DNA from: Martelella limonii
GTDB lineage: Bacteria; Pseudomonadota; Alphaproteobacteria; Rhizobiales; Rhizobiaceae
Length of the DNA stretch: 64,000 nt
NCBI RefSeq assembly: GCF_013344475.1
Contig: NZ_JABUOU010000001.1
Location: forward strand, 930,001-994,000
Reading direction: 5' to 3'
In this document: one piece after another, positions 5,984-21,155 of the stretch
Layout of the letters: the number at the start of each line of letters is the position of its first letter
Numbering within the stretch: the first letter of the stretch is position 1
Position numbers and translations under genes: made by a program
Notes under the pieces: generated by a model
Database searches by the model: none
The model's input: only the letters and a program-made list of their open reading frames with translations
Told to the model about the DNA's origin: nothing

Positions 5984-7297
5984 TCAGAGCCGCGCGAGGA
6001 AGGTCGCGATGCCTGGGATGAGAACGATCAGACCCAGCGATGCGATCATCGCGCCGACGAATGGCAGCGCGCCCCTGAAGATGTCGGAGATTTTCAGGTC
6101 GGGATCGTTCATCGCCGATTTGATGACATAGACCGAAAGGCCGAATGGCGGCGTCAGGAGACCGATTTCCACCGACACGACGGTGAGCACACCGAACCAG
6201 ATCAGGTCGAAGCCCGCCGCTTCGGCCACCGGCAGGGCGATCGGCAGCAGGATCAGCATGATCGAGATCGAATCGATCAGACAGCCGAGCGCGATGATCA
6301 GCAGCAGATAGAGCACCAGAAAGCCCCAGGGGCCCACCGGTCCATCCAGCATCACTTCCGCCAGGAAGCGCGGCACGCCGGAAAGCGCCAGCATGCGGCT
6401 GAAAAAGGTGGCGGCGAGGATCAGGAACAGGACGGAGACGGTGATCTGGCCGGTTTCGACCAGAAGGTTCCAGAAACTGCGCCAAGAGAGCGACCGGCGC
6501 AGCAGTGCGATTGCAAGCGCACCGAGCGCGCCCGCAGCGCCAGCTTCCGTAGGATTGAGGAAGCCGCCGTAAAGCCCGCCCAGTACCAGCACCATCAGAA
6601 ACACGATCGGAACGGCCTTGCGCAGCAACGCGCCCCAGCCGAGCGTATCCTCCGTTTCGCTCTCCTTCTCGCCGGTAAAGACGAAGCCGGGTGAAAAGCG
6701 TGCGAGCAGGAAGATCGTCACCGAGAAGGCGAAGGCGAGCAGCATGCCCGGGCCGACGCCCGCCAGAAACATGCGGCCGACCGATTCCTCGGCAAGCACC
6801 GCATAGACGATCATCAGGAGCGACGGCGGGATCAGCATGCCGAGAACGGACGATCCGGCCACGACGCCGGTCGCGAATTTCCTGGTATAGCCATGACGGG
6901 TCATCTCGGGCACGGCGACGCGGGAAAACACCGTTGCCGAGGCAATCGAGACGCCGGTGATCGCCGCAAACACCGCATTCGCAAAGACGGTGGCGATGCC
7001 GAGCCCGGCGGTGATCCGGCCAAGCAGGCGCTGGAAAACGTCGAACGTGTCCTTCCCCACCTTGGAGACGGTCACCAGGAGGCCCATCAAAACGAATAGC
7101 GGCACGATGGCGTAGAGATACTCCCGAAGCGAATTGTTGGCTGCCGCCCCCAGCATCCGCATCGACACAGGTTCACCGCGGATGGCGGCGACGCCTGCGA
7201 AGGAGACGGCGAGCATGGCAACGCCGATCGGCATGCCGAGATAGATCAGGACGAGGAGGCCGGCGATCGCCAGTCCGCCGATTTCAAGCGGGCTCAT
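5984..7297 (-). CDS. TRAP transporter large permease (DctM type)
   Basis: Large membrane subunit of a tripartite ATP-independent periplasmic transporter, 437 residues with about 12 hydrophobic segments. It moves the substrate with a sodium gradient. Family signatures seen: GMPIGVAMLAVS near the start, IVPLFVLMG, and SSVLGMLIPPSLLMIVY, the typical IPPS element. ATG at 7297 is used because the protein then starts with the usual MSPLEIG-type amphipathic end and the start overlaps the dctQ stop by 14 bases. It is the last TRAP gene of the leftward catabolic run. Confidence 0.93.
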   Translation of the reverse strand: MSPLEIGGLAIAGLLVLIYLGMPIGVAMLAVSFAGVAAIRGEPVSMRMLGAAANNSLREYLYAIVPLFVLMGLLVTVSKVGKDTFDVFQRLLGRITAGLGIATVFANAVFAAITGVSIASATVFSRVAVPEMTRHGYTRKFATGVVAGSSVLGMLIPPSLLMIVYAVLAEESVGRMFLAGVGPGMLLAFAFSVTIFLLARFSPGFVFTGEKESETEDTLGWGALLRKAVPIVFLMVLVLGGLYGGFLNPTEAGAAGALGALAIALLRRSLSWRSFWNLLVETGQITVSVLFLILAATFFSRMLALSGVPRFLAEVMLDGPVGPWGFLVLYLLLIIALGCLIDSISIMLILLPIALPVAEAAGFDLIWFGVLTVVSVEIGLLTPPFGLSVYVIKSAMNDPDLKISDIFRGALPFVGAMIASLGLIVLIPGIATFLARL

Positions 7298-7862
7298 GAG
7301 GGGCCTCATGTTTTCTGGCAGCGGACCGCAGATCGCGGACCGCCTGCACAAGGAATTCCAGCGCGGCAACCGTGACGCCAAGCAGGATGAAGACGCGGAA
7401 CGGCCATGTCGGCAGCGTTGCGATCCCCACCACGCCGATGAATTCTCCCGCGTTCCAGTCCTTCTCAAGGATGGCCAAGGTGGACCAGGCGATGCCGCCG
7501 ATCACGGCAGCGCCGGTCAGGTTGAAGAACGCCGACAACAGTGCGCCGGCGCGGGGATACTTGAGCCTGAACTGCGGATAGAAGATCTCGGTGCGCGCCA
7601 GCCGGTCGGCTTTCACCGTACTGCCGAGCTGCAGAGAAACGATCATCACGAGAAGCAGCGCGCCGAGTTCCGAAATCAGCGGCAGCGAGGAGCCGGCGCC
7701 GTTTCGAACCACGATATCGGCCGTGATGATCAGCATCAGGCCAAGGATCAGGGCCGTGCCGAGGGCTGCAAGCCCATCGACGAGGCCCTGCCACAGCCGC
7801 GCTGCCGTTCCGCCCTGCCCGCCATCATGGCGGGCAGTATCCTGTTCAGGCTGTGGGGCCAT
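7284..7862 (-). CDS. TRAP transporter small permease (DctQ type)
   Basis: Small membrane subunit of the same TRAP system, 192 residues, with four hydrophobic segments starting at LVDGLAALGTALILGLMLIIT and the family's ELGALLLVMIVSLQLGSTVKADRL region (E-x-x-x-LL ... A-D-R-L). An N-terminal 25-residue hydrophilic extension (APQPEQDTARHDGGQ) precedes the first helix. ATG at 7862 lies one base after the dctP stop, so translation is coupled. Interacts with DctM. Confidence 0.9.
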   Translation of the reverse strand: MAPQPEQDTARHDGGQGGTAARLWQGLVDGLAALGTALILGLMLIITADIVVRNGAGSSLPLISELGALLLVMIVSLQLGSTVKADRLARTEIFYPQFRLKYPRAGALLSAFFNLTGAAVIGGIAWSTLAILEKDWNAGEFIGVVGIATLPTWPFRVFILLGVTVAALEFLVQAVRDLRSAARKHEAPHEPA

Positions 7863-7863
7863 G

Positions 7864-8931
7864 TTACTGCTTGTCCCAGTCGCGCACAGGGGTTTCACCG
7901 GCATCGCGCAGGCCCTGCATGTAGGCAGACAGCATTTCCTGAGCGGCAGGTCCCTGGCTTTCGGCCCATTCGCCGGCGAGGTCCGGCAGCAGCGCCACCC
8001 AGGCCTCGCGCTGGTCGGCGGGCATCTCCACCAGCGTCACCGGCGGGTTCTGATCCTTGCCGAGCTCGACCATGTCGAGAAGCGCCTGCTCGTGGCCTTC
8101 GAGAAGCTGGGTGCCGTGGGCATCGGTGTAATATTTGCCGGCTTCCAGCATGGCGTCCTGCACTTCCTCCGGAAGCGTGTCCCAGACATCGCGGTTGATG
8201 GCGATCGCGCCCGAGAAGGCAACGGCTGCATCGAAGCGATTGAGATACGGCGCGACTTCATAGAGCTTGGCGGGCTTGGCGCCGAGCGCCAGCGTCAGCA
8301 CGCCATCGGAAACACCGGTCTGGATATCGGTGTAGAAAGTCGTCAGCGCTCCATCGACGGCATTTGCGCCCGTGCCGCGCAGCCAGGTGCCGAGCACGCC
8401 GGGGGCGGAAATCTTCATGCCGTTGATATCCTCGATGCTCTCGATCGGCTCCTTGGTGTAGATGTCGTACATGTCGGTTCCGGTCAGCCCCAGCACCTTC
8501 AGATTGTACTGTTCCCACTCTTCCCTAAGCGCCTCGTTGTTCTCCATCAGATCCTGCATCACGGTCAGCATGACCTTCGGATTGGCAGTCGAGAACGGTG
8601 CATAGCTCGACAGCTGGCTGAGCGGCAGCTTGGCTGGCTCGAGCATGGAGAACACCCAGCCGACATCGGTGATGCCTTCCTCGACGGAAGAGAGCGTCGC
8701 ATTCGCCTTGTAGAGCGTGCCGCCAAAGGCTTCGTTCCAGTTGATCTCGTAATCGCCGGTCTCGGCAAGAATCTCATCGGTCTTTGCCATGAAATGGGTC
8801 TGCATCATGCCGACCCACGGAATGACCGTCGGATGGCTGGATGCAATGGTGAGATCGATGATCTCCTGTGCGAAGAGCGAAGAAGGCATCACGACAATCG
8901 CTGCCGCCGTCATTTTCAAGAGTTTACGCAT
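7864..8931 (-). CDS. TRAP transporter substrate-binding protein (DctP type)
   Basis: Periplasmic solute receptor of the TRAP system, 355 residues. Signal peptide MRKLLKMTAAAIVVMPSSLFAQ is followed by the mature DctP fold: the ligand-binding core includes GMKISAPGVLGTWLRGTGANAV and the canonical DIQTGVSDGVL helix region. The mature part starts IIDLTIASSHPTVIPWVG, like the clade with C4/C5 or aromatic-acid ligands, but the specificity cannot be read from sequence. Strong GGGGAGGAA ribosome site. It lies 23 bases after the YCII gene, in line with CoA-transferase and lyase genes, which suggests import of the acid that those enzymes process. Confidence 0.93.
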   Translation of the reverse strand: MRKLLKMTAAAIVVMPSSLFAQEIIDLTIASSHPTVIPWVGMMQTHFMAKTDEILAETGDYEINWNEAFGGTLYKANATLSSVEEGITDVGWVFSMLEPAKLPLSQLSSYAPFSTANPKVMLTVMQDLMENNEALREEWEQYNLKVLGLTGTDMYDIYTKEPIESIEDINGMKISAPGVLGTWLRGTGANAVDGALTTFYTDIQTGVSDGVLTLALGAKPAKLYEVAPYLNRFDAAVAFSGAIAINRDVWDTLPEEVQDAMLEAGKYYTDAHGTQLLEGHEQALLDMVELGKDQNPPVTLVEMPADQREAWVALLPDLAGEWAESQGPAAQEMLSAYMQGLRDAGETPVRDWDKQ

Positions 8932-8954
8932 TGGTTCCTCCCCAAAATATGCGT

Positions 8955-9350
8955 TCAGTCCAGTGAAAAAGTCTGCGTCGAATAGTCGAGCCGGATCGAG
9001 ACCCGGCCCTCATTGATCATCCACGGGCGCAGCCGGAAGGTCCGGGCACCGCTTTTGTGCATGGGATCGGCCTCGGCGATGGCGCGGGCCTCCTCCAGCG
9101 TCGCGGTGCGGACCACCACGAAACCCTCGCCAGCCCAGGTCTCGCCATCATCGGAAAACAAGGGCCCTGCGGCATAAAGCAGGCCGTCCTGTTCGAGCTT
9201 CACCTGATAGGCGAGATGCTCCTCCATGCCGGCGAAGACCGGGCCCAGGCCATCCACCGGCGTGGTGGTGATGGCATAGAGCCGTTTCTGAAGCATGCCC
9301 TTGCTCGCCTCGAGCACGGCCGCAGCCGGTACGCTGTCTATCCTGTCCAT
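8955..9350 (-). CDS. YCII-related domain protein
   Basis: 131-residue protein of the YciI-like dimeric alpha-beta (ferredoxin-like) family, related in fold to muconolactone isomerase. Core motifs: QKRLYAITTTPVDG, HLAYQVKLEQDGLLYAAGPL (the conserved H...L...G...AGP) and GEGFVVVRTATLEEARAIAEADP. Such proteins are small isomerases or dehalogenase-like enzymes; most lack an assigned reaction. A strong GGGGGAGGAG precedes ATG at 9350. It sits between the CoA-transferase and dctP genes with gaps of 21 and 23 bases, so it is part of the same operon and may isomerise a ring-cleavage lactone or enol. The role is inference. Confidence 0.85.
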   Translation of the reverse strand: MDRIDSVPAAAVLEASKGMLQKRLYAITTTPVDGLGPVFAGMEEHLAYQVKLEQDGLLYAAGPLFSDDGETWAGEGFVVVRTATLEEARAIAEADPMHKSGARTFRLRPWMINEGRVSIRLDYSTQTFSLD

Positions 9351-9371
9351 GGCTCCTCCCCCCGTGGTCCC

Positions 9372-10517
9372 TCAGCCGGCCTTGCGGCGGGCCAGTTCGG
9401 CGCGGATTTCCGCGCCATGTTGGTCAAGTTCGGGCGGCGGGCTGATATCGGTTTCCGCCTTGCCGTCAAAGCTGTAGGGCGCGCGAATGGTCTTGGTGCG
9501 GCCCTTGACCGGGTGATCCATGTCGACGGCAATGCCGAGATGGACCGCCTGCGGATCCTCCATCGCCTCGTCACTGTCATAGGCCGGCGCATGCGGCACT
9601 TCGGCTTCCAGCAGGCGGTCGCACCATTCATCACGGCTGCGGGTCTTGAACACCGGCGTCAGGATGTCGATCAGCTCATCCTGATGCTGGATCCGCTCCA
9701 GCCTTTCGGCAAAGCGCGGATCGTCGGCGAGCTGTTGCTGTTCCGTGGCTGCAAGCAGACCTTCCCAGAATTTCGGCGGCGACGACATGTGGATCGCAAC
9801 CCACTTTTCATCGGAACATTCGAAGGTGTAGCTCTGCGACACCACGGGGCGCGACAGCGGGCCCATCACCTCGCCCTCGGCGTAGTAATGGGTGAAGCTG
9901 TCGAGGTTGAAATGGCTCATCGCCTCCAGCATCGAGATGTCGATCCGCCGGCCCTTGCCGGTCGAACTGCGCTCCAGCAATGCAGCGAGGATTGCCATGG
10001 CCGCATATTGGCCTGTCATGGCATCGGCAATCGCCGGGCCGATGACGCGGGGGCGATCCGGTGGCGTCAGGAGCCGGAGAAATCCGCTTGCTGCCTGCGC
10101 AACCGTATCGAAAGCGGGACGATCCCGCGACGGCCCGGACTGGCCAAAGCCCGAGATCGCGCAATAGACCAGCTTCGGATTGACCTTGCGCAGATCCTCC
10201 TCGCCAACGCCGAGCTTTTCGGCAACGCCGGGACGGAAATTCTGGATGAAGACATCGGCGCCCGCAATCAGGTCATGGAGCACGGCGAGGTCTTCCGCAT
10301 TGCGGGTGTCGAGCGCGATCGAACGCTTGTTGCGGTTATAAGTCTGGTAATGCGGCGAATAGAGCCCGCCCTTGAAGGCGCGGAAGGGGTCGCCCTCGCC
10401 CGGGCGCTCGACCTTGATCACATCCGCGCCGAGATCGGCAAGATGGGCGGCTGCCGCCGGACCGGTGATATAGGTGCCGAGTTCGATGACCCGGATGTCC
10501 TTCAAAATCTTGACCAT
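9372..10517 (-). CDS. Class III (CaiB/BaiF) CoA-transferase
   Basis: Family III CoA-transferase, 381 residues, which moves CoA from one acyl-CoA to another carboxylate. Family features seen: VIELGTYITGPAAAAHLADLGADVIKVE at the N-terminus, the RNKRSIALD loop, QNFRPGVAEKLG, and GFGQSGPSRDRPAFDTVAQAASG, which contains the catalytic Asp region. GGGAGG precedes ATG at 10517. It lies 26 bases downstream of the citryl-CoA-lyase-like gene and upstream of the YCII gene. Pairing of a CoA-transferase with a citrate-synthase-fold lyase suggests that a hydroxy-dicarboxylate or tricarboxylate is activated to a CoA thioester and then cleaved. Confidence 0.92.
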   Translation of the reverse strand: MVKILKDIRVIELGTYITGPAAAAHLADLGADVIKVERPGEGDPFRAFKGGLYSPHYQTYNRNKRSIALDTRNAEDLAVLHDLIAGADVFIQNFRPGVAEKLGVGEEDLRKVNPKLVYCAISGFGQSGPSRDRPAFDTVAQAASGFLRLLTPPDRPRVIGPAIADAMTGQYAAMAILAALLERSSTGKGRRIDISMLEAMSHFNLDSFTHYYAEGEVMGPLSRPVVSQSYTFECSDEKWVAIHMSSPPKFWEGLLAATEQQQLADDPRFAERLERIQHQDELIDILTPVFKTRSRDEWCDRLLEAEVPHAPAYDSDEAMEDPQAVHLGIAVDMDHPVKGRTKTIRAPYSFDGKAETDISPPPELDQHGAEIRAELARRKAG

Positions 10518-10543
10518 ATGGCTGCCTCCCGGAATTGCCTGTT

Positions 10544-11338
10544 TCAGGCCGTCTTTTTGGATGTCTTGCCGTCATAGGCGATCGCCTGATCGGCCTGGTG
10601 CGACATGATGAAGCCGATCGAACGCTGCGCTTCCTCGAACAGGTGCGCCGAGAGACCGGCGGTGCGGGCGAGCAGCGGCACGGCCTTCAGCGCCTCCACG
10701 GGCCAGCCAGCGTCGAGAATGGTCGCAGGGATGGCGCCGGACACATTGATCGGCAGCGGACGGTCCATCACCTCGGGCGCGACCTTGCCGAGGGCTCTGA
10801 GTGCTGCGATGTGTCGACCCGATACGCCGAGCTCATCGGCAATCTCCAGCAGCCGATTGGCGCGTGGATCCCCGGACGAATGCTGCGGATGGCCAAGGCC
10901 CGGCACCTTCTTGCGCTGAGCCTTCAGCGCCTCGACGCTCTTGCGGGCGGCCTGCTCTATATCGCCCTCGCCCGCGTCCTCAAGCACCTCGACCAGATAG
11001 CGGCCCGCCTGCTCGGAAGAACCGGCGACCACGCTGCCCATGCCGAGCAGGCCTGCCGCCATCGCGCCCTGCCAGGCATCGGGGCCGGCAGCAAGCGTCA
11101 TCCGCGCAGCCTGAACGCTCGGCACGAGACCATGTTCGGCGATGGCGACGAGGCAGGCATCCAGCATGCGGCGCTGCGCGGTCGTCGGCTTTTCGCCGAT
11201 CACCAGCAGCCAGAAATAATCGCTGAAGTCGATCTTCCCGATCAGGTCGTCGCAAAGATCATAGCCGCGAACGGTGATGGTTTCGGCATCGGACGTGGCG
11301 ATCGCAGTGAGGGCGTTGTCCTGTTTTCCAATTCGCAT
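10544..11338 (-). CDS. Citryl-CoA lyase-like protein (short citrate synthase fold)
   Basis: 264-residue protein of the short citrate-synthase superfamily group named citryl-CoA lyase. Such enzymes cleave citryl-CoA or similar 3-hydroxyacyl-CoAs to acetyl-CoA and a 2-oxo acid. Seen: ITVRGYDLCDDLIGKIDFSDYFWLL (N-terminal citrate synthase strand/helix), LLGMGSVVAGSSEQAGRYL, KVPGLGHPQHSSGDPRA with the catalytic GxGHP histidine, and PLPINVSGAIPATILD. ATG at 11338 is supported by GGAG seven bases upstream. It is the first gene of the leftward operon and diverges from iclR. An IclR-like palindrome (11351-11365) lies just ahead of its start. The true substrate is open. Confidence 0.85.
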   Translation of the reverse strand: MRIGKQDNALTAIATSDAETITVRGYDLCDDLIGKIDFSDYFWLLVIGEKPTTAQRRMLDACLVAIAEHGLVPSVQAARMTLAAGPDAWQGAMAAGLLGMGSVVAGSSEQAGRYLVEVLEDAGEGDIEQAARKSVEALKAQRKKVPGLGHPQHSSGDPRANRLLEIADELGVSGRHIAALRALGKVAPEVMDRPLPINVSGAIPATILDAGWPVEALKAVPLLARTAGLSAHLFEEAQRSIGFIMSHQADQAIAYDGKTSKKTA

Positions 11339-11350
11339 GGCATGCTCCGT

Positions 11351-11365
11351 TTTCGCTGTGCGAAA
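11351..11365. promoter_or_regulatory. Probable IclR-family operator
   Basis: TTTCGCTGTGCGAAA is a palindrome with perfect 6-bp arms and a 3-bp spacer, placed 13 bases ahead of the citryl-CoA-lyase start in the divergent region between that gene and iclR. IclR regulators bind such short A/T-flanked palindromes, so it is a good candidate for the IclR encoded at 11535. Binding is inference. Confidence 0.55.
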
Positions 11366-11534
11366 TAATTTCCTCTTGCCGAAATCGTAGAGAGCATTTA
11401 ACGTGCCGTCAAGTCGCAAGGTCAGGAGCGGACCGATCGCATCAGATCAGCCACCCGAAGCGCGCGACAGGCCCTTGTCCCGATGCGGCGTTGCCGTCAA
11501 TTTCGGAGCATGTTCGGCTAGAAGGAATGAAAAC

Positions 11535-12356
11535 GTGTCAGAAGCTTTGAAGATCATCGACGGCGAAGAGCGGCCTGCGGAATTCGTGGAGGCGCTCGCC
11601 AAGGGCCTTTCCATCATGGAAGCCTTCGATGCCGCCCATTCGGAAATGACGCTGTCGGAAGTCGCGCGCCGCGCGGGCCTTTCTCCGGCTGCCGCGCGCC
11701 GGAGCCTCATCACGCTCCAGTCGCTCGGCTATGTCGGTCAGAAGGACAAGCGGTTCCACCTGCGCCCCAAGGTGATGACGCTCAGTTCCGCCTTCTATTT
11801 CTCCGCCCATATCGACGAGGTGTTGCAACCCAATCTGCGCGGCCTTGTCGAACAGTTTGGCGATGCCTCGTCCGTCGGCACGCTTGACGGCGACCATGTG
11901 ATCTATGTCGCCCACGTCTCGGTCCAGCGGGCGCGGCGTGCCGCAGCCGTGATCGGCGCGCGCTATCCGGCCTTTGCGACATCGCTTGGCCGCGTCCTGC
12001 TCGCCGGTCTCTCCGACGAGGCGCTTGAGGATTATCTTGCCAAGGTCAAACCCGTCGCGCTGACCTCGAAGACCGTCACCGACCGCGACATTCTCCGTCA
12101 GAAGATCAGGGACGTCCGCGCCAACGGCTATTCCACCACGGTCGACCAGCTCGACTACGGCATCACCGCACTGGCCGTGCCGGTCCGCGACTTCGAGGGC
12201 CGGACGATCGCCGCGCTCAATACATCCGGCTACACCGGCATGGTGACGCCGCAACAGATGATCGAGGAAAGGCTTCCCGCCCTTCGGGAAGCCGCCTCGC
12301 ATATTGCCTTTGCCATGGGACGCTATCCCGTCCTGCAATCAATTCTTGGAACCTGA
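11535..12356 (+). CDS. IclR family transcriptional regulator
   Basis: One-component regulator of 273 residues, similar to the PcaR/PcaU/PobR branch that controls aromatic catabolism. It has an N-terminal winged HTH (FVEALAKGLSIMEAFD...MTLSEVARRAGLSPAAARRSLITLQSLGYV) and a C-terminal GAF-like effector domain (SSVGTLDGDHVIYVAHV...GYSTTVDQLDYGITALAVPV). The start is taken as GTG at 11535 with AAGGAA at 11522-11527; an upstream in-frame start at 11403 would add an implausible Arg-rich stretch. It diverges from the lyase/CoA-transferase/TRAP operon and lies upstream of the amidohydrolase-ligBA genes, so it probably controls both arms. Confidence 0.92.
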   Translation: MSEALKIIDGEERPAEFVEALAKGLSIMEAFDAAHSEMTLSEVARRAGLSPAAARRSLITLQSLGYVGQKDKRFHLRPKVMTLSSAFYFSAHIDEVLQPNLRGLVEQFGDASSVGTLDGDHVIYVAHVSVQRARRAAAVIGARYPAFATSLGRVLLAGLSDEALEDYLAKVKPVALTSKTVTDRDILRQKIRDVRANGYSTTVDQLDYGITALAVPVRDFEGRTIAALNTSGYTGMVTPQQMIEERLPALREAASHIAFAMGRYPVLQSILGT

Positions 12357-12397
12357 GGGAGAACAGGTTCCGCACATCGTTTCAGGGAGGAAAGATC

Positions 12398-13846
12398 ATG
12401 TGCAGATTTTGCGACGCCAAGCGGCTGCCGCTGCCAATGCCGGCATTCCAGGCGGAGGGTGCGAGCAGCCAGTCGGGCTTCAAGGCCGAAGAGATCGGCA
12501 AAAAAGGGCAACGCACCCTGATTCGCGGCGGCATCGTCATGTCGATGGACCAGGCGGTGGGCGATTTCGAACGCGGCGACATCCTGCTTGAGGGCAGCAA
12601 GATCGTCGAGATCGGCCCTTCGATCGAGGCAAGCGACGCGATCGTCATCGATGCTGCCGGCAAGATCGTGATGCCGGGCTTCATCGACACCCACCATCAC
12701 CAGTTCGAAACGGCGCTGCGCGGCCAGCTTGCCAACGCCATCCTGATCAATGACGGCCGGCCGTCCTCCGTCAACAATTACTACGAGATGGTGCTGCAGA
12801 CAGCCTCGATGGCCTATACGCCGGAAGATGTCTACATCAACGAGCTTTTCGCAGCGCTGTCGCAGCTTGATGCCGGCGTCACGACGGTGATGGACGTCAG
12901 CCAGATCCACCATACGCCGGAGCATTCCGACGCGGTGATCAAGGCGCTCAAGGATTCGGGCAGGCGCTCGGTGTTCGGTTATTTCGAAGGCTGGGGCGAC
13001 GGCGCGAAATATCCGGGCGACGCGAAACGCCTGAAGGAACAGTATTTCTCTTCCGACGACCAGCTCATCTCCATGGTCATGGGCGGCGAGATCTACCTGC
13101 CCTTCCACGAGGAGGCGTGGCGGATCGGCCGCGAGCTCGATCTTCCGATCGCGCTGCACGTCGTCGGGACATTCGGCATGCAGCCGACCTTCGACGAGCT
13201 CGGCAAGTCCGGCAAGTTCGGCGCGGACAACATCTTCATCCACATGACCGGCATGTCCGAAGACGGCTGGAAATACGCCCGCGATGCCGGCGCCCACATC
13301 TCGCTTTCGGTTCCGATCGAAATGCAGATGCGCCACGGCATGCCTCCGATCCAGCGCGCGCTCGACCTCGGCATGAGCATGTCGCTTTCCACCGATGTCG
13401 AATGCACGATGACGGCGGACTTCTTCACGCAGATGCGCGCCATGGTGACCATGCAGCGCATGTTTGCCAACGAAAAGGCGCTTGGCGGCGAGGATTATCC
13501 CGAGCTGATCACGTCGCGCCAGGCGCTCCATGCGGCAACCGTCGGCGGCGCGGAAGGCCTCCGGCTTTCGAAGAAGACCGGATCTCTGACGCCGGGCAAG
13601 GAAGCGGACATCATCCTGCTCGATGCAGAAGCGCTGAACGTCGCGCCGCTCAACAATGTGCCGGGCGCGGTGGTGACGCTGATGGAGCGCTCCAATGTCG
13701 ACACCGTGCTGGTCGCCGGCAAGGTGCGCAAGTGGAAGGGCAAGCTTCTCGGCTGCGATATCCCGCATCTGCGCGACGAACTGGTGAAGAGCCGCGACAG
13801 GATTTTCGAAAAGGCGGGACTGACCCGGTCCCTGTTTGGTGATTGA
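12398..13846 (+). CDS. Amidohydrolase family protein (AtzB/TrzN/8-oxoguanine deaminase-like) with N-terminal CxxC extension
   Basis: Metal-dependent hydrolase of 482 residues, TIM-barrel amidohydrolase superfamily, resembling the aminohydrolase/chlorohydrolase clade. Metal ligands are visible: FIDTHHHQFE (HxH), ALHVVGTFG, FIHMTGM and LSTDVEC (Asp). The C-terminal beta-sandwich returns with SLTPGKEADIILLDAEALN. Ahead of the usual start strand (LIRGGIVMSMD) there is an extra segment of about 40 residues opening with MCRFC, which is unusual. The start is fixed by GGGAGGAAAG just upstream. It lies 12 bases before ligB, so hydrolysis of a substituted aromatic or N-heterocycle may produce the dioxygenase substrate. 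That coupling is inference. Confidence 0.88.
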   Translation: MCRFCDAKRLPLPMPAFQAEGASSQSGFKAEEIGKKGQRTLIRGGIVMSMDQAVGDFERGDILLEGSKIVEIGPSIEASDAIVIDAAGKIVMPGFIDTHHHQFETALRGQLANAILINDGRPSSVNNYYEMVLQTASMAYTPEDVYINELFAALSQLDAGVTTVMDVSQIHHTPEHSDAVIKALKDSGRRSVFGYFEGWGDGAKYPGDAKRLKEQYFSSDDQLISMVMGGEIYLPFHEEAWRIGRELDLPIALHVVGTFGMQPTFDELGKSGKFGADNIFIHMTGMSEDGWKYARDAGAHISLSVPIEMQMRHGMPPIQRALDLGMSMSLSTDVECTMTADFFTQMRAMVTMQRMFANEKALGGEDYPELITSRQALHAATVGGAEGLRLSKKTGSLTPGKEADIILLDAEALNVAPLNNVPGAVVTLMERSNVDTVLVAGKVRKWKGKLLGCDIPHLRDELVKSRDRIFEKAGLTRSLFGD

Positions 13847-13858
13847 GGAGGAGAGAAC

Positions 13859-14719
13859 TTGGCAAAACTGGTCGCCACACTGGCATCGACGCACCACCCC
13901 TTCTATCTGAAGGCCACCACCATGCCGCCCGAGCAGCAGATGCCCGAGGCGCCGACATGGAAGAAGAAAATCGAAGCCTATCGCGAGACGCTCGCGAAGG
14001 CTGAGCCGGATATTCTGGTGATGGTCGGCTCCGACCATTTCCACCAGATCTTCCTCGACAACTGCCCACAATTCCTGATCGGCAAGGCGGCGCGCTATGA
14101 CGCCACCTTCTATAACGAGGAGCGCGAATTCGGCATTCCGAAATATGTGCTGGAAGGCGACGAGGACATGTCGCGCTTCATGCACAGGCACCTGATGGAT
14201 CAGGATTTCGATTTCGCATTTTCGAACGAACTGAAGATCGACCATTCGATCATCTGCCCGATCATCACCGTCAGGCCGCAGAACGATCTGCCGGTGGTGC
14301 CGATCTATACCAACATCTTCGCACCCCCGCTTCCGAGCCCGCGCCGCTTCTACAATCTCGGCCGCGCCATCCGGAAGGCGATCGACGCCTATCCGTCCGA
14401 CAAGCGCGTTGCGGCCATCGGCACGGGGCATCTGTCGCTGGAGCTCGGCGGCCCCCGCCAGTTCATGGAGACAGGCCCGGACCCGGTGTTCGACCGGCAG
14501 GCGATCGAGTGGCTTCGCAATGGCGATATCGAGGCAATCCTCGACAACGTCACCCATGAGAGCATGGTGAAAAGCGGCAACGCCACCCAGGGCTTCCTGA
14601 ACTTCATCCTGATGCTGGGCGTCGCCGGTCCCGAGAATGCCGACTATGTCGACAATCTCGACCTGTTCCACACCATGGAAGCCTATTTCACCTGGTATCC
14701 GAAGGAGCAGGCGGCATGA
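13859..14719 (+). CDS. Class III extradiol ring-cleavage dioxygenase, large (LigB-type) subunit
   Basis: Catalytic subunit of a LigAB-type extradiol dioxygenase, 286 residues (Sphingobium LigB about 302). Residues lining up with LigB are visible: His12 in STHHPF, His60 in VGSDHFH and Glu234 in VTHES as probable iron ligands, and His191 in GTGHLS as catalytic base. It would open a catecholic ring meta to a hydroxyl, giving a semialdehyde or oxalomesaconate-like product. The gene uses TTG as start, decided by GGAGGAG directly upstream and by the family N-terminus. Its stop overlaps ligA by four bases (ATGA). Substrate could be protocatechuate, gallate or a relative; no other lig genes are present. 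Confidence 0.9.
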   Translation: MAKLVATLASTHHPFYLKATTMPPEQQMPEAPTWKKKIEAYRETLAKAEPDILVMVGSDHFHQIFLDNCPQFLIGKAARYDATFYNEEREFGIPKYVLEGDEDMSRFMHRHLMDQDFDFAFSNELKIDHSIICPIITVRPQNDLPVVPIYTNIFAPPLPSPRRFYNLGRAIRKAIDAYPSDKRVAAIGTGHLSLELGGPRQFMETGPDPVFDRQAIEWLRNGDIEAILDNVTHESMVKSGNATQGFLNFILMLGVAGPENADYVDNLDLFHTMEAYFTWYPKEQAA

Positions 14720-15087
14720 GCAAATATTACGTCAACAAGTTCCTGTTCACCGTCGACCGAGATCCGGAACTGCTGAAGCGCTACACCGACGATCCGCGCA
14801 CCTTCGTTGCCACCTGGGAACAGTCGATTGGGCCCAAGCTTCTCGGCAATGATGTCGAGGCTTCGAGCGTGCATTCATTTACCGATGCGGAACGCGACGC
14901 GCTGATCAACCACGACTATGTGGCGCTGTTCGAGATGGGGGCCCACTTCTTCCTCAATCTGACGATGTATATCGGCATCTATGACGAGCCCTACATCCAG
15001 AAGACCGGGCCGCTGTCCTTCCAGCGCGAAATGGCCGCCCGGCTGCAGCACTGGCGAGACAAGGACTATCCGACGGTCGAGACCTAG
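14716..15087 (+). CDS. Extradiol dioxygenase small (LigA-type) subunit
   Basis: Small subunit of the class III dioxygenase, 123 residues, the all-helical LigA fold that caps the LigB active site. Seen: VNKFLFTVDRDPELLKRYTDDPRTFVATW, LTDAE-like FTDAERDALINHDYVALFEMGAHFF and a C-terminal amphipathic end. The order ligB-ligA is reversed from Sphingobium ligAB. It overlaps ligB (ATGA) so both subunits are made in equal amounts. A good terminator follows 20 bases downstream, closing the rightward IclR arm. Confidence 0.88.
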   Translation: MSKYYVNKFLFTVDRDPELLKRYTDDPRTFVATWEQSIGPKLLGNDVEASSVHSFTDAERDALINHDYVALFEMGAHFFLNLTMYIGIYDEPYIQKTGPLSFQREMAARLQHWRDKDYPTVET

Positions 15088-15143: not shown

Positions 15144-15335
15144 CTTCAAACTGACGCTCTTCACACTCGCGGCATGCCCTTCCTGAACACTTTCTGCGAA
15201 GGGCCGCGCACCCGAAAATACCTTCACAATCTCCGACCGATCACAGGGCGCCAGCACCTGCGCTGTTGCACATCAAAGCCGGGAGATTTATGCCTGTTAG
15301 GAAAGTTAAGACGCACAGATAAAAGGAAGCATCGC

Positions 15336-17315
15336 ATGGAAGAGAAGGCAAAAGGCACGCGGAAAGCGGGGCGGATTTTGCTTTGGTCGGTCGCAGCAAT
15401 CGCCGTGATTGCGGCTGCAGGCGCGGTCGGCGGCAAGGTCATGCTGGAAAAGACGGTGGCAGACAGCATCGCAAAGAGCGGCGCAACCGCAGCCTCCGTC
15501 AAGGCTGACCTCATTGGCCACGTCCATGTAACAGATCTCACGCTTCCGATCGAGGAAGGTCAATCCCTGCACGTCGCCTCGGTCGAGGCAAGGCCAGAGT
15601 TTCTTTTTCTCACCGGCATGATCGAGGCCAGCGACCTTTCCTTCAAGAGCGAATTGTACGACGTCACCGTTCCGAACCTGAAGGTTGAGAATGCCGGGTT
15701 GAACCGGGAGTTTCTCGCCGCCATGGACGAGAACAGCGCCCTTACGCCGGCGGAGCGGGTCGAGCGCATCTCTGCCGGTCAGATCACAATTCCGCAGATC
15801 GACGCGAAGCAGAATATCGAGGGCATCGCGCAGACGACAACCTACTCCGATGTCGTGCTGAAGGACATCGTCAACGGACATGTCGGCTCCTACGCCGCGG
15901 GCGAGATGCGCGCTCAGGTCACGCCGCCGACGGGAGAAGACGCGCCGGCCCTTCCGCTTTCGACGACGATTTCCATCGAAAGCATCGAAGGTCAGGACAT
16001 CGACGGACCGTTTCTCGCCCGGATCTACACCGAGACCAGTGCGGGCGAAGACAAGAACGAGCCCCGCCTGGTCTACGGACCGGTTTCGGCGAAAAACTTC
16101 GTCATGACGATGGACGAGGAAAGCATCTCCTACGGCGCGTTGAAGAGCAGCGGTTTCTGGATGCGCCTGCCCGAAGTGCCCTTCTTCGAAACGGTGCAGG
16201 CATTGCAGGAATCCGCCCAGACGCAGGACATGACCGACGAGCAGAAGCAGCGTCTGGGTCTTCAGGTCCTGTCGCTCATCGATACGATTTCGAAGGGCGA
16301 CATGGAAGTTTCCGACATGCGCGTGACCTCCTCTGAAGAACCGGACATGAGCTTCAAGATTGATCGGATGGCGGTCGCCATGGACGAATTGGTCTTTGAT
16401 ACAGAGGTAGAGGGGGTCGATATCAGGGCTGGCGATGACTTCTTCACCCTGCAAAAGGCAACGAGCTCCGGCTTCTCCTTCGTTCCGACGATGGAAGCAG
16501 TGAGGGCCCTGATAGAGGCGGGTCCGGAAGGTCAGGACCGGCTCGAGGTCAGTGCCTTCATGCCCGCATTCGGCACGATCACGATGACGGACTACGCCGT
16601 CAGCGCGACGCCGGACACAGAAAACGGCTTCGGCGTGGATGAGACCTTAGAGATGAGCCTCAAGGATTTCAGCGTCGTCTTCGACGAGCCCTTCAAGGGC
16701 ATTCCAACCGGCATCCATTTTGCGATGGATCAGTTGAAGATAAAACTCACCGACGAGAAAAACGAGGCGGTCCAGATCTTCAGGAAGATGGGCTATGAAG
16801 AGGTGACGATGTCGGAAAACATTGCGCTTCGTTGGGACAGGGCCGAGAAGCAGCTGGCCATCGAAGACATCACCTTGAGCGGCGAGGACATCGGCAGCAT
16901 TTCGCTCGCCGCCACGATCGGCAATTTCGGCGAAGAGTTCTTCTCGGGCGACAAGGATCTGGTACAGGCTGCGGCATTTGCGCTCACAGTCCACGAGATC
17001 AGCATGGAGCTTGAAAACGATGGCCTCTTCTCCCGGGCCCTGAAGCTTTATGCGGACGACAAGGGCATCAGCGAAGGGGATGCCGCTTCGATTGTTGCCC
17101 TCACGCTATCCGTTGCTGCCGAGAGCCTGGGCGATGATCAGACCATTCTGCCCGTGATCGACGCAGTTTCGGCCTTCATCGCCGATCCCAAGACGCTCGC
17201 AATTGCCATCAAGGCAAAGTCCGATCAGGGCATCGGCATGCCGGCCCTGATGACGGCAGCGATGGCGCCGGCGAGCCTGCTGCAGCAGGTCGATATTTCC
17301 GCGTCAGCCGAATAA
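15336..17315 (+). CDS. Membrane-anchored protein of unknown function (659 aa)
   Basis: I do not recognise a named family. The protein opens with a short basic end (MEEKAKGTRKAGR), one membrane segment (ILLWSVAAIAVIAAAGAVGG), then a long acidic, beta-rich exported region. The layout (anchor followed by short repeating strands such as GHVHVTDLTLPIEEGQSLHVASVEA and SAGQITIPQIDA) recalls AsmA or DUF945-like periplasmic proteins that line the inner membrane. ATG at 15336 has AAAGGAAG upstream; an earlier in-frame start at 15126 would fall inside the preceding terminator. It is monocistronic: terminator before, convergent lysR after. Few cysteines or histidines, so an enzyme is unlikely; envelope role is a guess. 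Confidence 0.65.
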   Translation: MEEKAKGTRKAGRILLWSVAAIAVIAAAGAVGGKVMLEKTVADSIAKSGATAASVKADLIGHVHVTDLTLPIEEGQSLHVASVEARPEFLFLTGMIEASDLSFKSELYDVTVPNLKVENAGLNREFLAAMDENSALTPAERVERISAGQITIPQIDAKQNIEGIAQTTTYSDVVLKDIVNGHVGSYAAGEMRAQVTPPTGEDAPALPLSTTISIESIEGQDIDGPFLARIYTETSAGEDKNEPRLVYGPVSAKNFVMTMDEESISYGALKSSGFWMRLPEVPFFETVQALQESAQTQDMTDEQKQRLGLQVLSLIDTISKGDMEVSDMRVTSSEEPDMSFKIDRMAVAMDELVFDTEVEGVDIRAGDDFFTLQKATSSGFSFVPTMEAVRALIEAGPEGQDRLEVSAFMPAFGTITMTDYAVSATPDTENGFGVDETLEMSLKDFSVVFDEPFKGIPTGIHFAMDQLKIKLTDEKNEAVQIFRKMGYEEVTMSENIALRWDRAEKQLAIEDITLSGEDIGSISLAATIGNFGEEFFSGDKDLVQAAAFALTVHEISMELENDGLFSRALKLYADDKGISEGDAASIVALTLSVAAESLGDDQTILPVIDAVSAFIADPKTLAIAIKAKSDQGIGMPALMTAAMAPASLLQQVDISASAE

Positions 17316-17386: not shown

Positions 17387-18361
17387 CTATCTGAGGCCCG
17401 GCTCGGCATCGCGCGCAAGACGCAGCCGGCAGCCCTGCGCAACCAGCATGTCGCGCGCCGTTCGGTCGAAGGTCTCGGCCTCCTTCAGGATCCAGTCGAT
17501 GAACAGCCGCACCACGCGGCGGTTGACATGCCTGCCGGGGCATACCGCCCAATAAGCCGGAAACTCGATCACGTCGAATTGCGGACTGAATGGCACGAGG
17601 GTCCCGCGTTCGAGATCCTCTTGAGCAAGCGTGGCGGAATCGAGCACCACCCCTGCCCCGTCGCGCGCGAGCTGGATCGCCATAGACGACCGATCGAAGC
17701 GCAGCGCGCTTGTTTCGGTGGGCGCTGCAATTTCATGCACCATCAGCCACACATCCCATTGGTAGAGCGCCTTCACCGAATGGATCAGCCGTGAATGGGA
17801 AAACTGGACAATCGGATCGGGGCTGATCGATCGCATCTGTTCGCGATAATCCGGGCTGCACATCGGCAGCACGAAATCATTGATGATGCACTCCGTATGC
17901 AACCCTTCCCAGGCACCGGACCCATACCGAAGATCAAGATCGATCACCTCGGTTTCGAAATCGGAGAAATCGGGAGAGGCATCGATGCGCACACCCCAGT
18001 CCGGATGGGAATCGACGAAGCGCTTGAGCCGCGGCGTCAGCCAGCGCACCGCGAAGCTCGGGCTGGAGCGCAGGGTCAGCTGATGGCTGTTGCGCTGGTG
18101 AACCAGCGCCGAACGGGCATCGCGGATCATCCGCAGCGCCGAGGTGGTCGTCTGGAACAGCATCTCGCCATCGATCGTCAGCGTCAGCCGCCGGTCCTTG
18201 CGCCTGAACAGACGCACGCCCCACTGTTCCTCAAGTTGCTTGAGCTGCTGGCTGACCGCTGCCGTCGAGACGCCGAGCTCGGCTGCTGCAAGCGTCACCC
18301 GCCCGGTGCGCGCAACAGCTTCGAAATAGGCCAACGAATTGAGGTTGGGGCTGATCGGCAT
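17387..18361 (-). CDS. LysR family transcriptional regulator (GcvA-like)
   Basis: 324-residue LysR regulator. N-terminal winged HTH: NLNSLAYFEAVARTGRVTLAAAELGVSTAAVSQQLKQLEEQWGVRLFRRKDR in family spacing, followed by a type-2 periplasmic-binding effector domain (LRSSPSFAVRWLTPRLKRFVDSHPDWGV, typical of GcvA-like members). ATG at 18361 is chosen because GGAGG sits six bases upstream; a TTG at 18373 is in frame. It is next to the dehydrogenase/TRAP operon on the same strand but 79 bases downstream, and may act on the divergent promoter at 22133-22438, where a T-N11-A palindrome is found. Confidence 0.9.
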   Translation of the reverse strand: MPISPNLNSLAYFEAVARTGRVTLAAAELGVSTAAVSQQLKQLEEQWGVRLFRRKDRRLTLTIDGEMLFQTTTSALRMIRDARSALVHQRNSHQLTLRSSPSFAVRWLTPRLKRFVDSHPDWGVRIDASPDFSDFETEVIDLDLRYGSGAWEGLHTECIINDFVLPMCSPDYREQMRSISPDPIVQFSHSRLIHSVKALYQWDVWLMVHEIAAPTETSALRFDRSSMAIQLARDGAGVVLDSATLAQEDLERGTLVPFSPQFDVIEFPAYWAVCPGRHVNRRVVRLFIDWILKEAETFDRTARDMLVAQGCRLRLARDAEPGLR

Positions 18362-18440
18362 GGCGGCCTCCAAAGCAGCTTGGGCGCGCCCGTTGCAAAA
18401 ACAGACACGCCCACCTCATGCGGCCTTCGGGAGGAAGCTG

Positions 18441-19328
18441 TCAACCCATGCCATTGAGCCGGCGGTAGGCCGCAACCACCTGGCTATCATCGCGAGAACC
18501 ATTGCCCGCGCCGCTTTCTGCAAGAAACATCTGGTGCGCGGCAGCCGCAAGCGGCAGCGCCATGCCTGCGGCGCGTCCGGTCGCAAGCGCAATGCCGAGA
18601 TCCTTCACGAAAATGTCCACCGCGCTGGTGACAGGCGGTTCGTCCATCAGCATGCGCGGCCCGCGGTCCTTGAGCATCCAGCTGGAGGCGGCCGAACCGG
18701 ACACGATCTCGAGCAGCGTGGCCGTGTCGACCCCTGCCTTTTCGCCGAGCGCCATCGCTTCGCCTGCTGCGGCGAGATGAACTCCGCACAGCAACTGGTT
18801 GATCGCCTTCACCGCAGCGCCCTGACCAACCTCCGGTCCACAGTGGTAAAGCTTGTCGCCCATGGCCCGAAGAAGTGCTTCGACATGGTCATAGGCAGAC
18901 CTTGGCGCGCCGACCATGATTGTCAGCGTTCCGGCCCTGGCGCCGACGACGCCACCGGAAACCGGGCAATCGACGAGAACCTTGCCTTCTGCCGATACCT
19001 CGCTGTCGAGCATCACCACCTCGTCCTGCGGACAGGTGGCCATCAGGCAGACATGCGCGCCTTCTGGCAGCGCCTGCAGCGCTCCCGCGCCGACGAGCAC
19101 GCTGCGGGCCTGGGCGGCATTCACCACCATCAGCACCAGTGCATCGGCCCCTGCGCAGGCTGAGGAGAGGCTGGCCGCCGGCTTGCCGCCGGCAGACACC
19201 AGTGCCTCCATGGCCTCCTGGCGCATGTCAAAACCGCGCACCTCGTGTCCGGCCTTCACCAGGTTTTGCGCCATCGGCAGTCCCATCGATCCGAGACCGA
19301 CAAAGGCGACTTTCATTTTCGACGACAT
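18441..19328 (-). CDS. 3-hydroxyisobutyrate/L-threonate dehydrogenase-like oxidoreductase
   Basis: NAD(P)-dependent beta-hydroxyacid dehydrogenase, 295 residues. Seen: Rossmann GLGSMGLPMAQNLVKAGHEVRGFD, substrate-binding DCPVSGGVVGARAGTLTIMVG, and the catalytic lysine motif GQGAAVKAINQLLCGVH with Lys in VKxxNQ. The GVHLAAAGEAMALGEKAGVD pattern is closest in style to L-threonate dehydrogenase (LtnD) and tartronate semialdehyde reductase relatives. It follows dctM by seven bases, so it is the last gene of the TRAP operon. The expected partners of the threonate route (OtnK/OtnI/OtnC) are not present, so its substrate here is uncertain; a four-carbon sugar acid is plausible. Confidence 0.85.
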   Translation of the reverse strand: MSSKMKVAFVGLGSMGLPMAQNLVKAGHEVRGFDMRQEAMEALVSAGGKPAASLSSACAGADALVLMVVNAAQARSVLVGAGALQALPEGAHVCLMATCPQDEVVMLDSEVSAEGKVLVDCPVSGGVVGARAGTLTIMVGAPRSAYDHVEALLRAMGDKLYHCGPEVGQGAAVKAINQLLCGVHLAAAGEAMALGEKAGVDTATLLEIVSGSAASSWMLKDRGPRMLMDEPPVTSAVDIFVKDLGIALATGRAAGMALPLAAAAHQMFLAESGAGNGSRDDSQVVAAYRRLNGMG

Positions 19329-19335
19329 ATCAACC

Positions 19336-20595: not shown

Positions 20596-21155
20596 GTCGT
20601 GTGCTCCACATCGGTCTCGAACAGGGTTTCCGGATCATCGGCGTAGGCGGTGCGGACAAGGTTGATCACCGAAGCAACCGCAATGCCGCCAAAGCCGAAC
20701 AGCAGCGCGCTGTAGGCCCAGGCCTGACCGAGCCCCGTCATCGGGAAAACCTGTACCCGGGTGATCTGGATCACCTGCAGGGAAAGATAGGCGAGATAGA
20801 AGAAGGAAACGGCAACCAGAAGATGGATACCCATCATCAGCACCCTGAGCTGGGCGGTGTTGAGCATCGACCTGAAGGCCTCGGCGGCGATATGCGCTCC
20901 CCTGAGCGCGCCAAGGACGATCCCGCCCATGATCAGCCAGGGAAACAGGATATTGGGAACTTCGTTCGGCCAGCCAAGGCTTGCGTCGGTCATGTAGCGA
21001 ACGACCACCTCGGCAATCAGGGAGAAGAAGATCACCACCACGGAGCCGACCGCGATTGCCATCGAGATACGGTCGAGCAGCCAGCCCAACCCTTCAGCGA
21101 GGCGCAAGGCGGGAGTTCCCGCCTTGCGCGCCGTCCGGATACCGTCGGCGTTCAT
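20592..21155 (-). CDS. TRAP transporter small permease (DctQ type)
   Basis: Small permease of the second TRAP system, 187 residues, with four hydrophobic segments. Conserved DctQ region: VVRYMTDASLGWPNEVPNILFPWLIMGGIVLGALRGAHIAAEAF, with the W..E....F.W...G......G.H pattern of the family. The start shares one base with the dctP stop (TAATG), so translation is coupled. Confidence 0.9.
   Translation of the reverse strand: MNADGIRTARKAGTPALRLAEGLGWLLDRISMAIAVGSVVVIFFSLIAEVVVRYMTDASLGWPNEVPNILFPWLIMGGIVLGALRGAHIAAEAFRSMLNTAQLRVLMMGIHLLVAVSFFYLAYLSLQVIQITRVQVFPMTGLGQAWAYSALLFGFGGIAVASVINLVRTAYADDPETLFETDVEHTT

Follow-up and report, generated by a model that had tools for sequence, protein, structure and literature searches.

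A 64,000-nucleotide stretch of the genome of Martelella limonii (hereafter the window; G000:C1:930001-994000, where G000 denotes the organism's own 4.54 Mb genome in 40 contigs) carries a ten-gene island in which a LigAB-fold dioxygenase is encoded together with a citrate-synthase-fold, citryl-CoA-lyase-like enzyme (gene Ccl) and a coenzyme A (CoA)-transferase (gene CaiB). The explanation that best fits the analysis described here, to which a probability of approximately 0.5 is attached, is that the island represents one catabolic regulon, the products of which would open a polyhydroxylated ring, load CoA onto the ring-opened acid and cleave the thioester to acetyl-CoA and oxaloacetate. An earlier note on this DNA had already proposed a single system with CoA activation and cleavage on a citrate-synthase fold, and that part of its route is upheld by linkage of the genes in two phyla and by a palindrome shared among relatives; a retro-aldol version of the cleavage is not, and neither is the step by which, in the note, the amidohydrolase would form the diphenolic substrate from a nitrogen-substituted precursor.

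All ten reading frames described in the earlier note are present (Table 1), and nine were matched immediately by profiles of the families named there, the tenth, ligA, giving a weak match that is backed by its relatives. The divergent gap at 11339-11534 is likewise real, with the lyase gene beginning at 11338 and iclR at a GTG codon at 11535. Genes for the lyase, CoA-transferase, YCII protein and TRAP carrier run leftward from this gap, and iclR, the amidohydrolase gene, ligB and ligA run rightward, ligA sharing four bases with ligB. The lyase falls within citryl-CoA-lyase subfamily PRK06224.1-5 (317.9 bits against a cut-off of 193) and the amidohydrolase matches the PRK08204 model (416.6 bits, cut-off 391), while the IclR protein scores 257.4 bits on a PcaR/PcaU/PobR-type model, under the cut-off of 284.75. 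The IAD..TG motif of the CoA-transferase, the Asp of which we take to be the catalytic Asp of class III enzymes, is kept across 45 close copies aligned.

The association of these genes was examined in a collection of one genome per species (84,980 species), from which the best 80 of 503 stretches with LigB relatives were kept and neighbours within ~10 kb of LigB counted by tblastn (G and L numbers denote the genomes and loci compared). LigA was present in all 80 loci, Ccl in 66, CaiB in 65 and IclR in 63; the amidohydrolase was found in 52, with distant copies of 30-37% identity counted in, and DctM in 37. A flavin mononucleotide (FMN) reductase of one of two kinds (21 and 13 loci) occurs in 34 of the 80, a MetE-like protein in seven and an MhpA-type flavin hydroxylase in four. 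Co-occurrence in other genomes was one of the checks that the earlier note had proposed, and the frequencies of Ccl and CaiB indicate that their linkage to LigB is not due to chance. The LigB-LigA-Ccl-CaiB linkage is seen in both Alphaproteobacteria and Actinobacteria, the actinobacterial gene order (CaiB-Ccl-LigB-LigA) being unlike that of the alphaproteobacterial loci. Actinobacterial LigB is 73-77% identical to the window copy, and actinobacterial Ccl just 38-43%, the latter forming a separate branch in a quick tree of 63 rows without support values.

Distribution of the system is patchy. The nearest named LigB relatives include proteins of Hoeflea (95%) and Martelella (92%), and relatives of at least 76% identity occur in 13 of 199 genomes of the family, the organism's own included. 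A phylum-wide sample gave LigB matches at E <= 1e-60 in two of 398 genomes, again with its own included, and a copy of at least 65% identity occurs in 11 plasmid records. The genomes of the 14 LigAB loci that have no Ccl are mostly free of the gene altogether: at 1e-25 it is missing from 11 of them, and the matches in the remaining three are 33, 34 and 50% identical. LigAB without Ccl or CaiB was observed, for instance, in L117 (Rhizobium johnstonii pRlX5), L048, L066-L070, L072, L076, L082 and L100, accompanied by varying sets of cytochrome P450, M20 peptidase, fumarylacetoacetate (FAA)-hydrolase and alpha/beta hydrolase genes; L117 additionally holds a VirA-like sensor kinase and a 1-aminocyclopropane-1-carboxylate (ACC) deaminase.

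Further evidence as to the function of the island comes from loci in which the dioxygenase has been exchanged. A search for Ccl in the 199 family genomes revealed eight that have a copy of 71-77% identity yet no close LigB, one of which (G177) has a LigB relative of 34%. In six of the eight (L156-L161) an intradiol dioxygenase gene adjoins Ccl within an otherwise similar island, which retains the transferase, TRAP carrier, IclR and MetE-like genes and, in five of the six, the amidohydrolase. The intradiol protein of L158 matches PF00775 and PF04444 and scores 207-224 bits against five structures (three bear the name hydroxyquinol or chlorohydroxyquinol dioxygenase), compared with at most 117 bits against catechol and chlorocatechol 1,2-dioxygenases; on these scores it is of the hydroxyquinol-1,2-dioxygenase type. 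Its iron ligands look intact when the alignment is inspected by eye at what we take to be the ligand positions. The 80 LigB loci are all without the intradiol gene. In a Ccl tree of 29 rows, five of which belong to neither dioxygenase state, the distribution of LigAB and intradiol states requires at least three changes, and a single clade of the six intradiol loci is rejected by the approximately unbiased test (p-AU 1.45e-05); judged from this tree, the swap has happened repeatedly. One dioxygenase has thus been substituted for another, unrelated one with the lower part of the island retained, and the simplest reading is that both make the same product. Of the remaining two loci, L162 has Ccl beside a vicinal oxygen chelate (VOC) dioxygenase, GalB, LigK and GalD, and the 6.8 kb contig of L163 shows just Ccl, CaiB and IclR.

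The LigB protein itself departs from the enzymes that it most resembles. Its predicted structure (mean predicted local distance difference test score, pLDDT, 79.9) is closest in fold to DesB (Foldseek E 1.3e-20, template modelling (TM) score 0.84; 0.81 to LigAB), a gallate dioxygenase that acts on a vicinal triol according to the titles of the structure entries. DesB residues His12, His59 and Glu239 are taken here to be the iron ligands and His192 the catalytic His, and this numbering fits the DesB chain. Both His ligand columns are kept in the island family (His12 and His60), but the Glu column is Gly and the catalytic-His column Leu in 87 of 87 aligned LigB sequences, and an invariant new His (191) stands three residues ahead of the lost catalytic His; the loop at 196-202, just past the changed site, is poorly modelled. 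As both an iron ligand and the catalytic His are replaced in the alignment, LigB is not a standard LigAB enzyme, in contrast to what the earlier note supposed. It could be guessed that the metal is bound by three His residues. Members of a sister family (L014-L016, L194 and L195) are 35-39% identical to LigB, and those of L014-L016 (35-36%) share the Gly and the new His. Replacement of the His in homoprotocatechuate 2,3-dioxygenase (HPCD H200F) reportedly turns an extradiol enzyme to intradiol cleavage; the variant is not mentioned in the ten papers searched for it. As for LigA, the window copy matches PF07746 at E 0.0068, below the cut-off, while eight of eight aligned relatives match, the best at 7.7e-06. 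The island thus shares with DesB and the protocatechuate 4,5-dioxygenase LigAB a fold, two His ligands and an adjoining LigA-like partner gene, and differs from them in the replaced residues, the new His and an island that is without LigK, GalB and GalD. Cleavage of 3,4-dihydroxypyridine by a PydA-type enzyme was considered and rejected: the PydA motifs DDHFENH and EWICGM given in passages of PMC3637104 are absent from the window LigB, which has GSDHFHQ. The KpiABC and PydA pathways (PMC7356986, PMC3637104) resemble the island in that PydA is of the LigB family and KpiC an amidohydrolase, but as set out in the passages of those papers they proceed without CoA steps.

A comparable change is apparent in Ccl, for which 63 copies were aligned, including citryl-CoA lyase (PDB 6HXP) and 40 dioxygenase-linked copies that form a chosen part of those at hand. 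Every one of the 63 copies keeps both active-site His residues and the Arg of the DPR motif, and all but one (62 of 63) keep a second Arg. The catalytic Asp (NVDG motif) is absent from all 40 dioxygenase-linked copies and is Ser in the window. Among the 26 LigAB-linked copies the position is Ser in 18 and Ala in eight, Ala being the actinobacterial state, and it is Ser in every copy linked to an intradiol dioxygenase (six), a VOC protein (seven) or a GalB set (one). Asp is kept, on the other hand, in seven of eight paralogs linked to a tricarboxylate transporter, in three of 14 others and in 6HXP; in a wider set of 91 copies it occurs in one, the L175 paralog. In citrate synthase this Asp moves a proton of acetyl-CoA, and its loss from 40 of 40 copies indicates that the island enzyme is probably not an ordinary retro-aldol lyase of the citryl-CoA type. 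The island enzyme is like citryl-CoA lyase and citrate synthase in its family (PRK06224) and its conserved His and Arg columns, and unlike them in the replacement of Asp and in having ring-cleaving dioxygenases rather than a tricarboxylate transporter as neighbours. Use of citrate or citramalate by the island was rejected, as this is probably the role of L175, the Asp-type paralog of the same genome, which is located with a CaiB gene and a tricarboxylate carrier.

From these observations we infer the following course, from the imported compound, substrate and product to the direction of CoA transfer and the lyase reaction. The TRAP carrier would import an organic acid, and the LigAB-fold dioxygenase would open a polyhydroxylated ring with a vicinal triol. 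The CaiB-type transferase would then load CoA onto the ring-opened acid at its far carboxyl, and the citrate-synthase-fold enzyme would cut the thioester with release of acetyl-CoA. This scheme of CoA loading and cleavage, considered apart from the identity of the ring, is rather probable. The best-fitting substrate would be 1,2,3,5-tetrahydroxybenzene or a derivative, a tentative assignment. The hydroxyl groups of this compound form a hydroxyquinol as well as a pyrogallol pattern, so that cleavage in intradiol fashion (C1-C2) and in the manner of LigAB (C2-C3) would by symmetry both yield 2,4-dioxoadipate. The CoA ester of this acid could undergo a hydrolytic retro-Claisen reaction to acetyl-CoA and oxaloacetate, which are customary ligands of this fold. 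There is a fair chance that the lyase and LigB perform new chemistry. The fullest version of the proposal, that a rebuilt LigAB does the work of an intradiol enzyme and an Asp-less citrate-synthase fold acts as a 3-oxoacyl-CoA hydrolase, such that bacteria in two phyla, from the sea, from soil and from plants, take tetrahydroxybenzene-type rings straight to acetyl-CoA and oxaloacetate, is doubtful.

Two sets of variant loci are pertinent to this scheme. Seven (L167-L173) have an operon comprising a Ser-type Ccl, a phenylacetate-CoA-ligase-like enzyme and a 193-aa VOC protein, with a glutathione S-transferase (GST) in six of the seven, L169 being a short contig; L165 and L166 have Ccl and the ligase-like enzyme with no VOC protein. 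In the seven operons the putative CoA ligase appears to replace the transferase and the VOC protein to be a third putative type of dioxygenase, an arrangement that favours a general scheme in which different rings are opened, loaded with CoA and then cleaved by Ccl, and that possibly represents a sister pathway. Additionally, an FAA-hydrolase-family gene lies near LigAB in five of the 14 loci without Ccl (four copies of 69-99% identity and one of 27%), as against one of the 66 with Ccl (25%). The nearest characterised relatives of this gene include a 2,4-diketo-acid hydrolase, at 72.2 bits and far below the cut-off of 500, and its presence in the loci without Ccl supports a 2,4-dioxo acid as the product of ring cleavage. 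The MhpA-type flavin hydroxylases close to four of the 80 LigB loci also speak for the model.

The two arms of the island are likely to be under common control. The palindrome TTTCGCNNNGCGAAA lies in the divergent gap, ~12 bases ahead of the lyase start, and 123 distinct loci (L193 and L078 are the same locus, counted once) gave 76 sites with at most one mismatch, distributed over 62 loci. Of these sites, 58, from 50 loci, are no more than 350 bases ahead of an island gene. A control of one shuffle in two-base blocks gave eight sites at any position. Sorted by downstream gene, sites precede Ccl (44), IclR (41, mostly in the shared gap), the amidohydrolase (seven), the intradiol gene (six), LigB (five) and FMN reductase (one), and the palindrome stands between the arms in 31 of 33 window-type loci and is present in 40 of the 66 LigB loci with Ccl. 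This pattern indicates that both arms share a regulator in the relatives of the window, a statement that does not extend to Actinobacteria, and a single IclR regulon is likely in the alphaproteobacterial relatives as judged from these sites. G000 has three exact sites, one at the island and two elsewhere, against one match per strand in the control; inspection of six off-island loci, one of them from G000, identified no clear pathway gene at any.

The genome contains other sets of ring-degradation genes. Contig C8 (like C2, another contig of G000) encodes LigK (378.9 bits, cut-off 304.5), GalD (499.4, cut-off 440), a VOC dioxygenase and a PIG-L protein that was taken for GalB and is 79% identical to the L162 copy. 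This set (L174, 4400-17000) has its own TRAP carrier and LysR regulator, with transposase-like frames nearby as judged by eye. On contig C2 an intradiol dioxygenase adjoins an iron-containing alcohol dehydrogenase (Fe-ADH) that resembles maleylacetate reductase, an identity that curated models do not confirm, and an Fe-ADH of similar appearance lies beside an intradiol dioxygenase in at least G019 and G105. LigK exceeds its cut-off in nine of 12 island genomes, and G000 has six matches to PF04909, to which LigI and LigJ belong. The earlier note's statement that LigC, LigI, LigJ and LigK are missing therefore holds for LigI, LigJ and LigK within the island but not for the genome, which has LigK, a GalB-like protein and GalD on C8; LigC was not searched for. 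A full LigCIJK set induced with the island had been named there as grounds for abandoning the proposal, and the GalB/GalD/LigK set comes close to this. It is, however, located on a different contig beside a dioxygenase, a transporter and a LysR gene of its own, and the 20 kb of C8 with these genes are free of the palindrome (at most one mismatch). Given that sets of both kinds are encoded elsewhere, it is unlikely that the island serves oxalomesaconate or plain maleylacetate, and a third product is probable.

Several observations weigh against the proposed route via ring opening and a CoA ester. Having neither the Glu ligand nor the catalytic His, LigB may be something other than a conventional iron dioxygenase. 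The significance of the missing Asp in Ccl is itself open to argument, in that passages of PMC10115795 describe the corresponding Asp of ATP-citrate lyase as essential and its role as debated. Moreover, L176-L179 have a Thr-type Ccl without a dioxygenase, among neighbours that by eye resemble carboxylase/biotin carboxylase, HMG-CoA-lyase-like and acyl-CoA-dehydrogenase genes; since non-Asp Ccl occurs without any dioxygenase, loss of the Asp marks a change of reaction and does not alone point to rings. The Ccl relatives encoded in the VOC/GST operon would seem to act on other products of ring cleavage, and the FAA-hydrolase link rests on few loci. An MhpA-type hydroxylase was found neither in G000 nor in 13 further of the 16 island genomes at E <= 1e-60, which leaves the origin of tetrahydroxybenzene there unexplained. 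The amidohydrolase, which is within the palindrome regulon in some relatives, has no role in the scheme, and nor is there a place in it for the YCII protein. Finally, the palindrome is not significant in the window alone (three matches at up to two mismatches against 1.47 expected), and none precedes an island gene among 12 actinobacterial loci.

These difficulties admit other explanations, of which the nearest is a hydroxyquinol route without a reductase, in which LigB would cleave in intradiol fashion and the CoA ester of maleylacetate would be split to acetyl-CoA and maleate or fumarate. It would account for the hydroxyquinol-1,2-dioxygenase type of the enzyme that replaces LigAB, for the Leu that in 87 of 87 LigB copies occupies the position of the His that steers extradiol cleavage, and for the GST of the related VOC operon, and FMN reductase and YCII proteins are known from hydroxyquinol pathways. 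The island would, however, be redundant in at least G000, G019 and G105, which already have an intradiol dioxygenase with Fe-ADH, and the FAA-hydrolase variant points instead to a 2,4-dioxo acid; the route is considered unlikely. Distinctly less credible is a route along the lines of the earlier note, in which the cleavage product of a gallate- or protocatechuate-like substrate would be hydrated to 4-carboxy-4-hydroxy-2-oxoadipate and its CoA ester split by a retro-aldol reaction to acetyl-CoA and an oxo acid. DesB is indeed the nearest fold, the hydrated product would resemble citrate, and some loci lie close to genes of that pathway, Ccl being near a VOC dioxygenase, GalB, LigK and GalD in L162, LigAB near GalB, GalD and LigM in L053, and LigK, in G035, sharing a contig with LigB at a distance of ~17 kb. 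Yet the lyase has lost its catalytic Asp, none of the island genes matches a recognised hydratase family, and the genome already encodes, away from the island, a LigK to split 4-carboxy-4-hydroxy-2-oxoadipate; a hydroxyquinol-type dioxygenase would presumably not accept a benzoate.

The absence of the Glu ligand and catalytic His from all 87 aligned copies could also be explained if the LigB-like protein were a hydrolytic or hydratase-type metalloenzyme and oxygenation took place elsewhere. Such a protein would hardly be exchanged, with the rest of the island unchanged, for an intradiol dioxygenase with seemingly intact iron ligands, and this alternative is regarded as very unlikely. Most improbable is a non-aromatic reductone ring: the amidohydrolase would release, for example, the core of a mycosporine or of deoxygadusol, and ring opening would leave an acid that already has the tertiary alcohol needed by a citryl-CoA-type lyase. 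This would account for both the amidohydrolase and the missing hydratase, but leaves the loss of the Asp unexplained; hydroxyquinol-type enzymes act on aromatic triols, and the papers listed on the subject gave no published link and no support for the mycosporine idea. A riboflavin/lumichrome route was also rejected, the genes in PMC12746152 being different and CoA unmentioned in the passages concerned.

Opening of a ring followed by CoA loading and cleavage on a citrate-synthase fold, if correct, would differ from each of the established endings. The beta-ketoadipate pathway likewise combines ring opening, a CoA-transferase and C-C cleavage to acetyl-CoA, whereas the island uses another class of transferase and a citrate-synthase fold instead of a thiolase, with oxaloacetate as the proposed second product. 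The island resembles the hydroxyquinol pathway in the intradiol enzyme that stands in for LigAB at six loci and in the FMN reductase near LigB, but the ten island genes include no Fe-ADH and CoA steps are found instead; similarly, LigJ and LigK, or GalB, GalD and LigK, of the protocatechuate 4,5-cleavage and gallate pathways are missing from the island operon. Neither the combination of LigAB, citryl-CoA lyase and CoA-transferase nor the routes proposed here were found in the open-licence PubMed Central (PMC) literature searched, judged mostly by titles and the openings of abstracts; in the passages of PMC12673573 that describe an mhqO cluster, 'citrate synthase' is merely a reference gene. 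The proposal, if true, would add a lower pathway by which ring-opened products feed into acetyl-CoA via a citrate-synthase fold, and it predicts a new reaction for proteins labelled citryl-CoA lyase in databases; this label and that of 'extradiol ring-cleavage dioxygenase' would need revising in many genomes. Two natural enzymes of unrelated fold that seemingly perform the same ring cleavage also render the intradiol/extradiol question testable.

The remaining proteins are less readily placed. In close copies of the amidohydrolase the metal-binding motifs HHH, ALH, IHM and S[TS]D are kept. ATZ/TRZ deaminases combine metal-binding His/Asp motifs with a catalytic Glu, and the ALHVVG stretch of these copies is without Glu. 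The N-terminus reads MCxxC in 47 of 48 distinct close copies, the other being cut by a contig end. A strict twin-arginine motif is present in 19 of the 48; in those species the amidohydrolase may be extracytoplasmic and act ahead of uptake. The window copy (N-terminus at 12398-12440) shows the Cys motif without a signal. No MetE-like partner was found in the organism's own genome at E <= 1e-40, though close copies (77-100%) are present in 12 of the 16 island genomes. A MetE-like protein is encoded off the island at 13-19 kb from LigK in two genomes (G121:C1:3241900-3260732 and G019:C7:646144-660069), a position from which it may serve another, perhaps demethylating, set.

Table 1. Genes and putative operator of the island, in window coordinates; locus counts are out of the 80 LigB loci.
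Feature	Position	Strand	Evidence
DctM, TRAP large permease (start codon uncertain)	5984..7306	-	PF06808 5.5e-84
DctQ, TRAP small permease	7284..7904	-	PF04290 4.2e-11
DctP, TRAP solute-binding protein	7864..8931	-	PF03480 3.7e-29; relatives near LigB in 36/80 loci
YCII-domain protein	8955..9350	-	PF03795 1.2e-11; 31/80 loci
CaiB-type class III CoA-transferase	9372..10517	-	PF02515 1.1e-110; 65/80 loci
Citrate-synthase-fold lyase, annotated citryl-CoA lyase, Ser at the catalytic-Asp position	10544..11338	-	NF004868 317.9 bits; 66/80 loci
Palindrome TTTTCGCTGTGCGAAAT, probable IclR operator	11350..11366	.	~12 bases ahead of lyase start
IclR-family regulator, PcaR/PcaU/PobR type	11535..12356	+	PF01614 1e-33, PF09339 3.5e-14
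Amidohydrolase, PRK08204 type, MCxxC start	12398..13846	+	NF006056 416.6 bits
LigB-fold dioxygenase subunit, altered metal and catalytic site	13859..14719	+	PF02900 6.2e-31; model TM 0.84 to DesB
LigA-like small subunit	14716..15087	+	PF07746 weak in window copy, 8/8 relatives; near LigB in 80/80 loci

Beyond ligA, a 671-aa open frame at 15300-17315 of the window has no Pfam match at 1e-5. It is followed at 17387-22132 by a separate leftward set of genes encoding a LysR regulator, a hydroxyisobutyrate-dehydrogenase-like enzyme and a second TRAP transporter.

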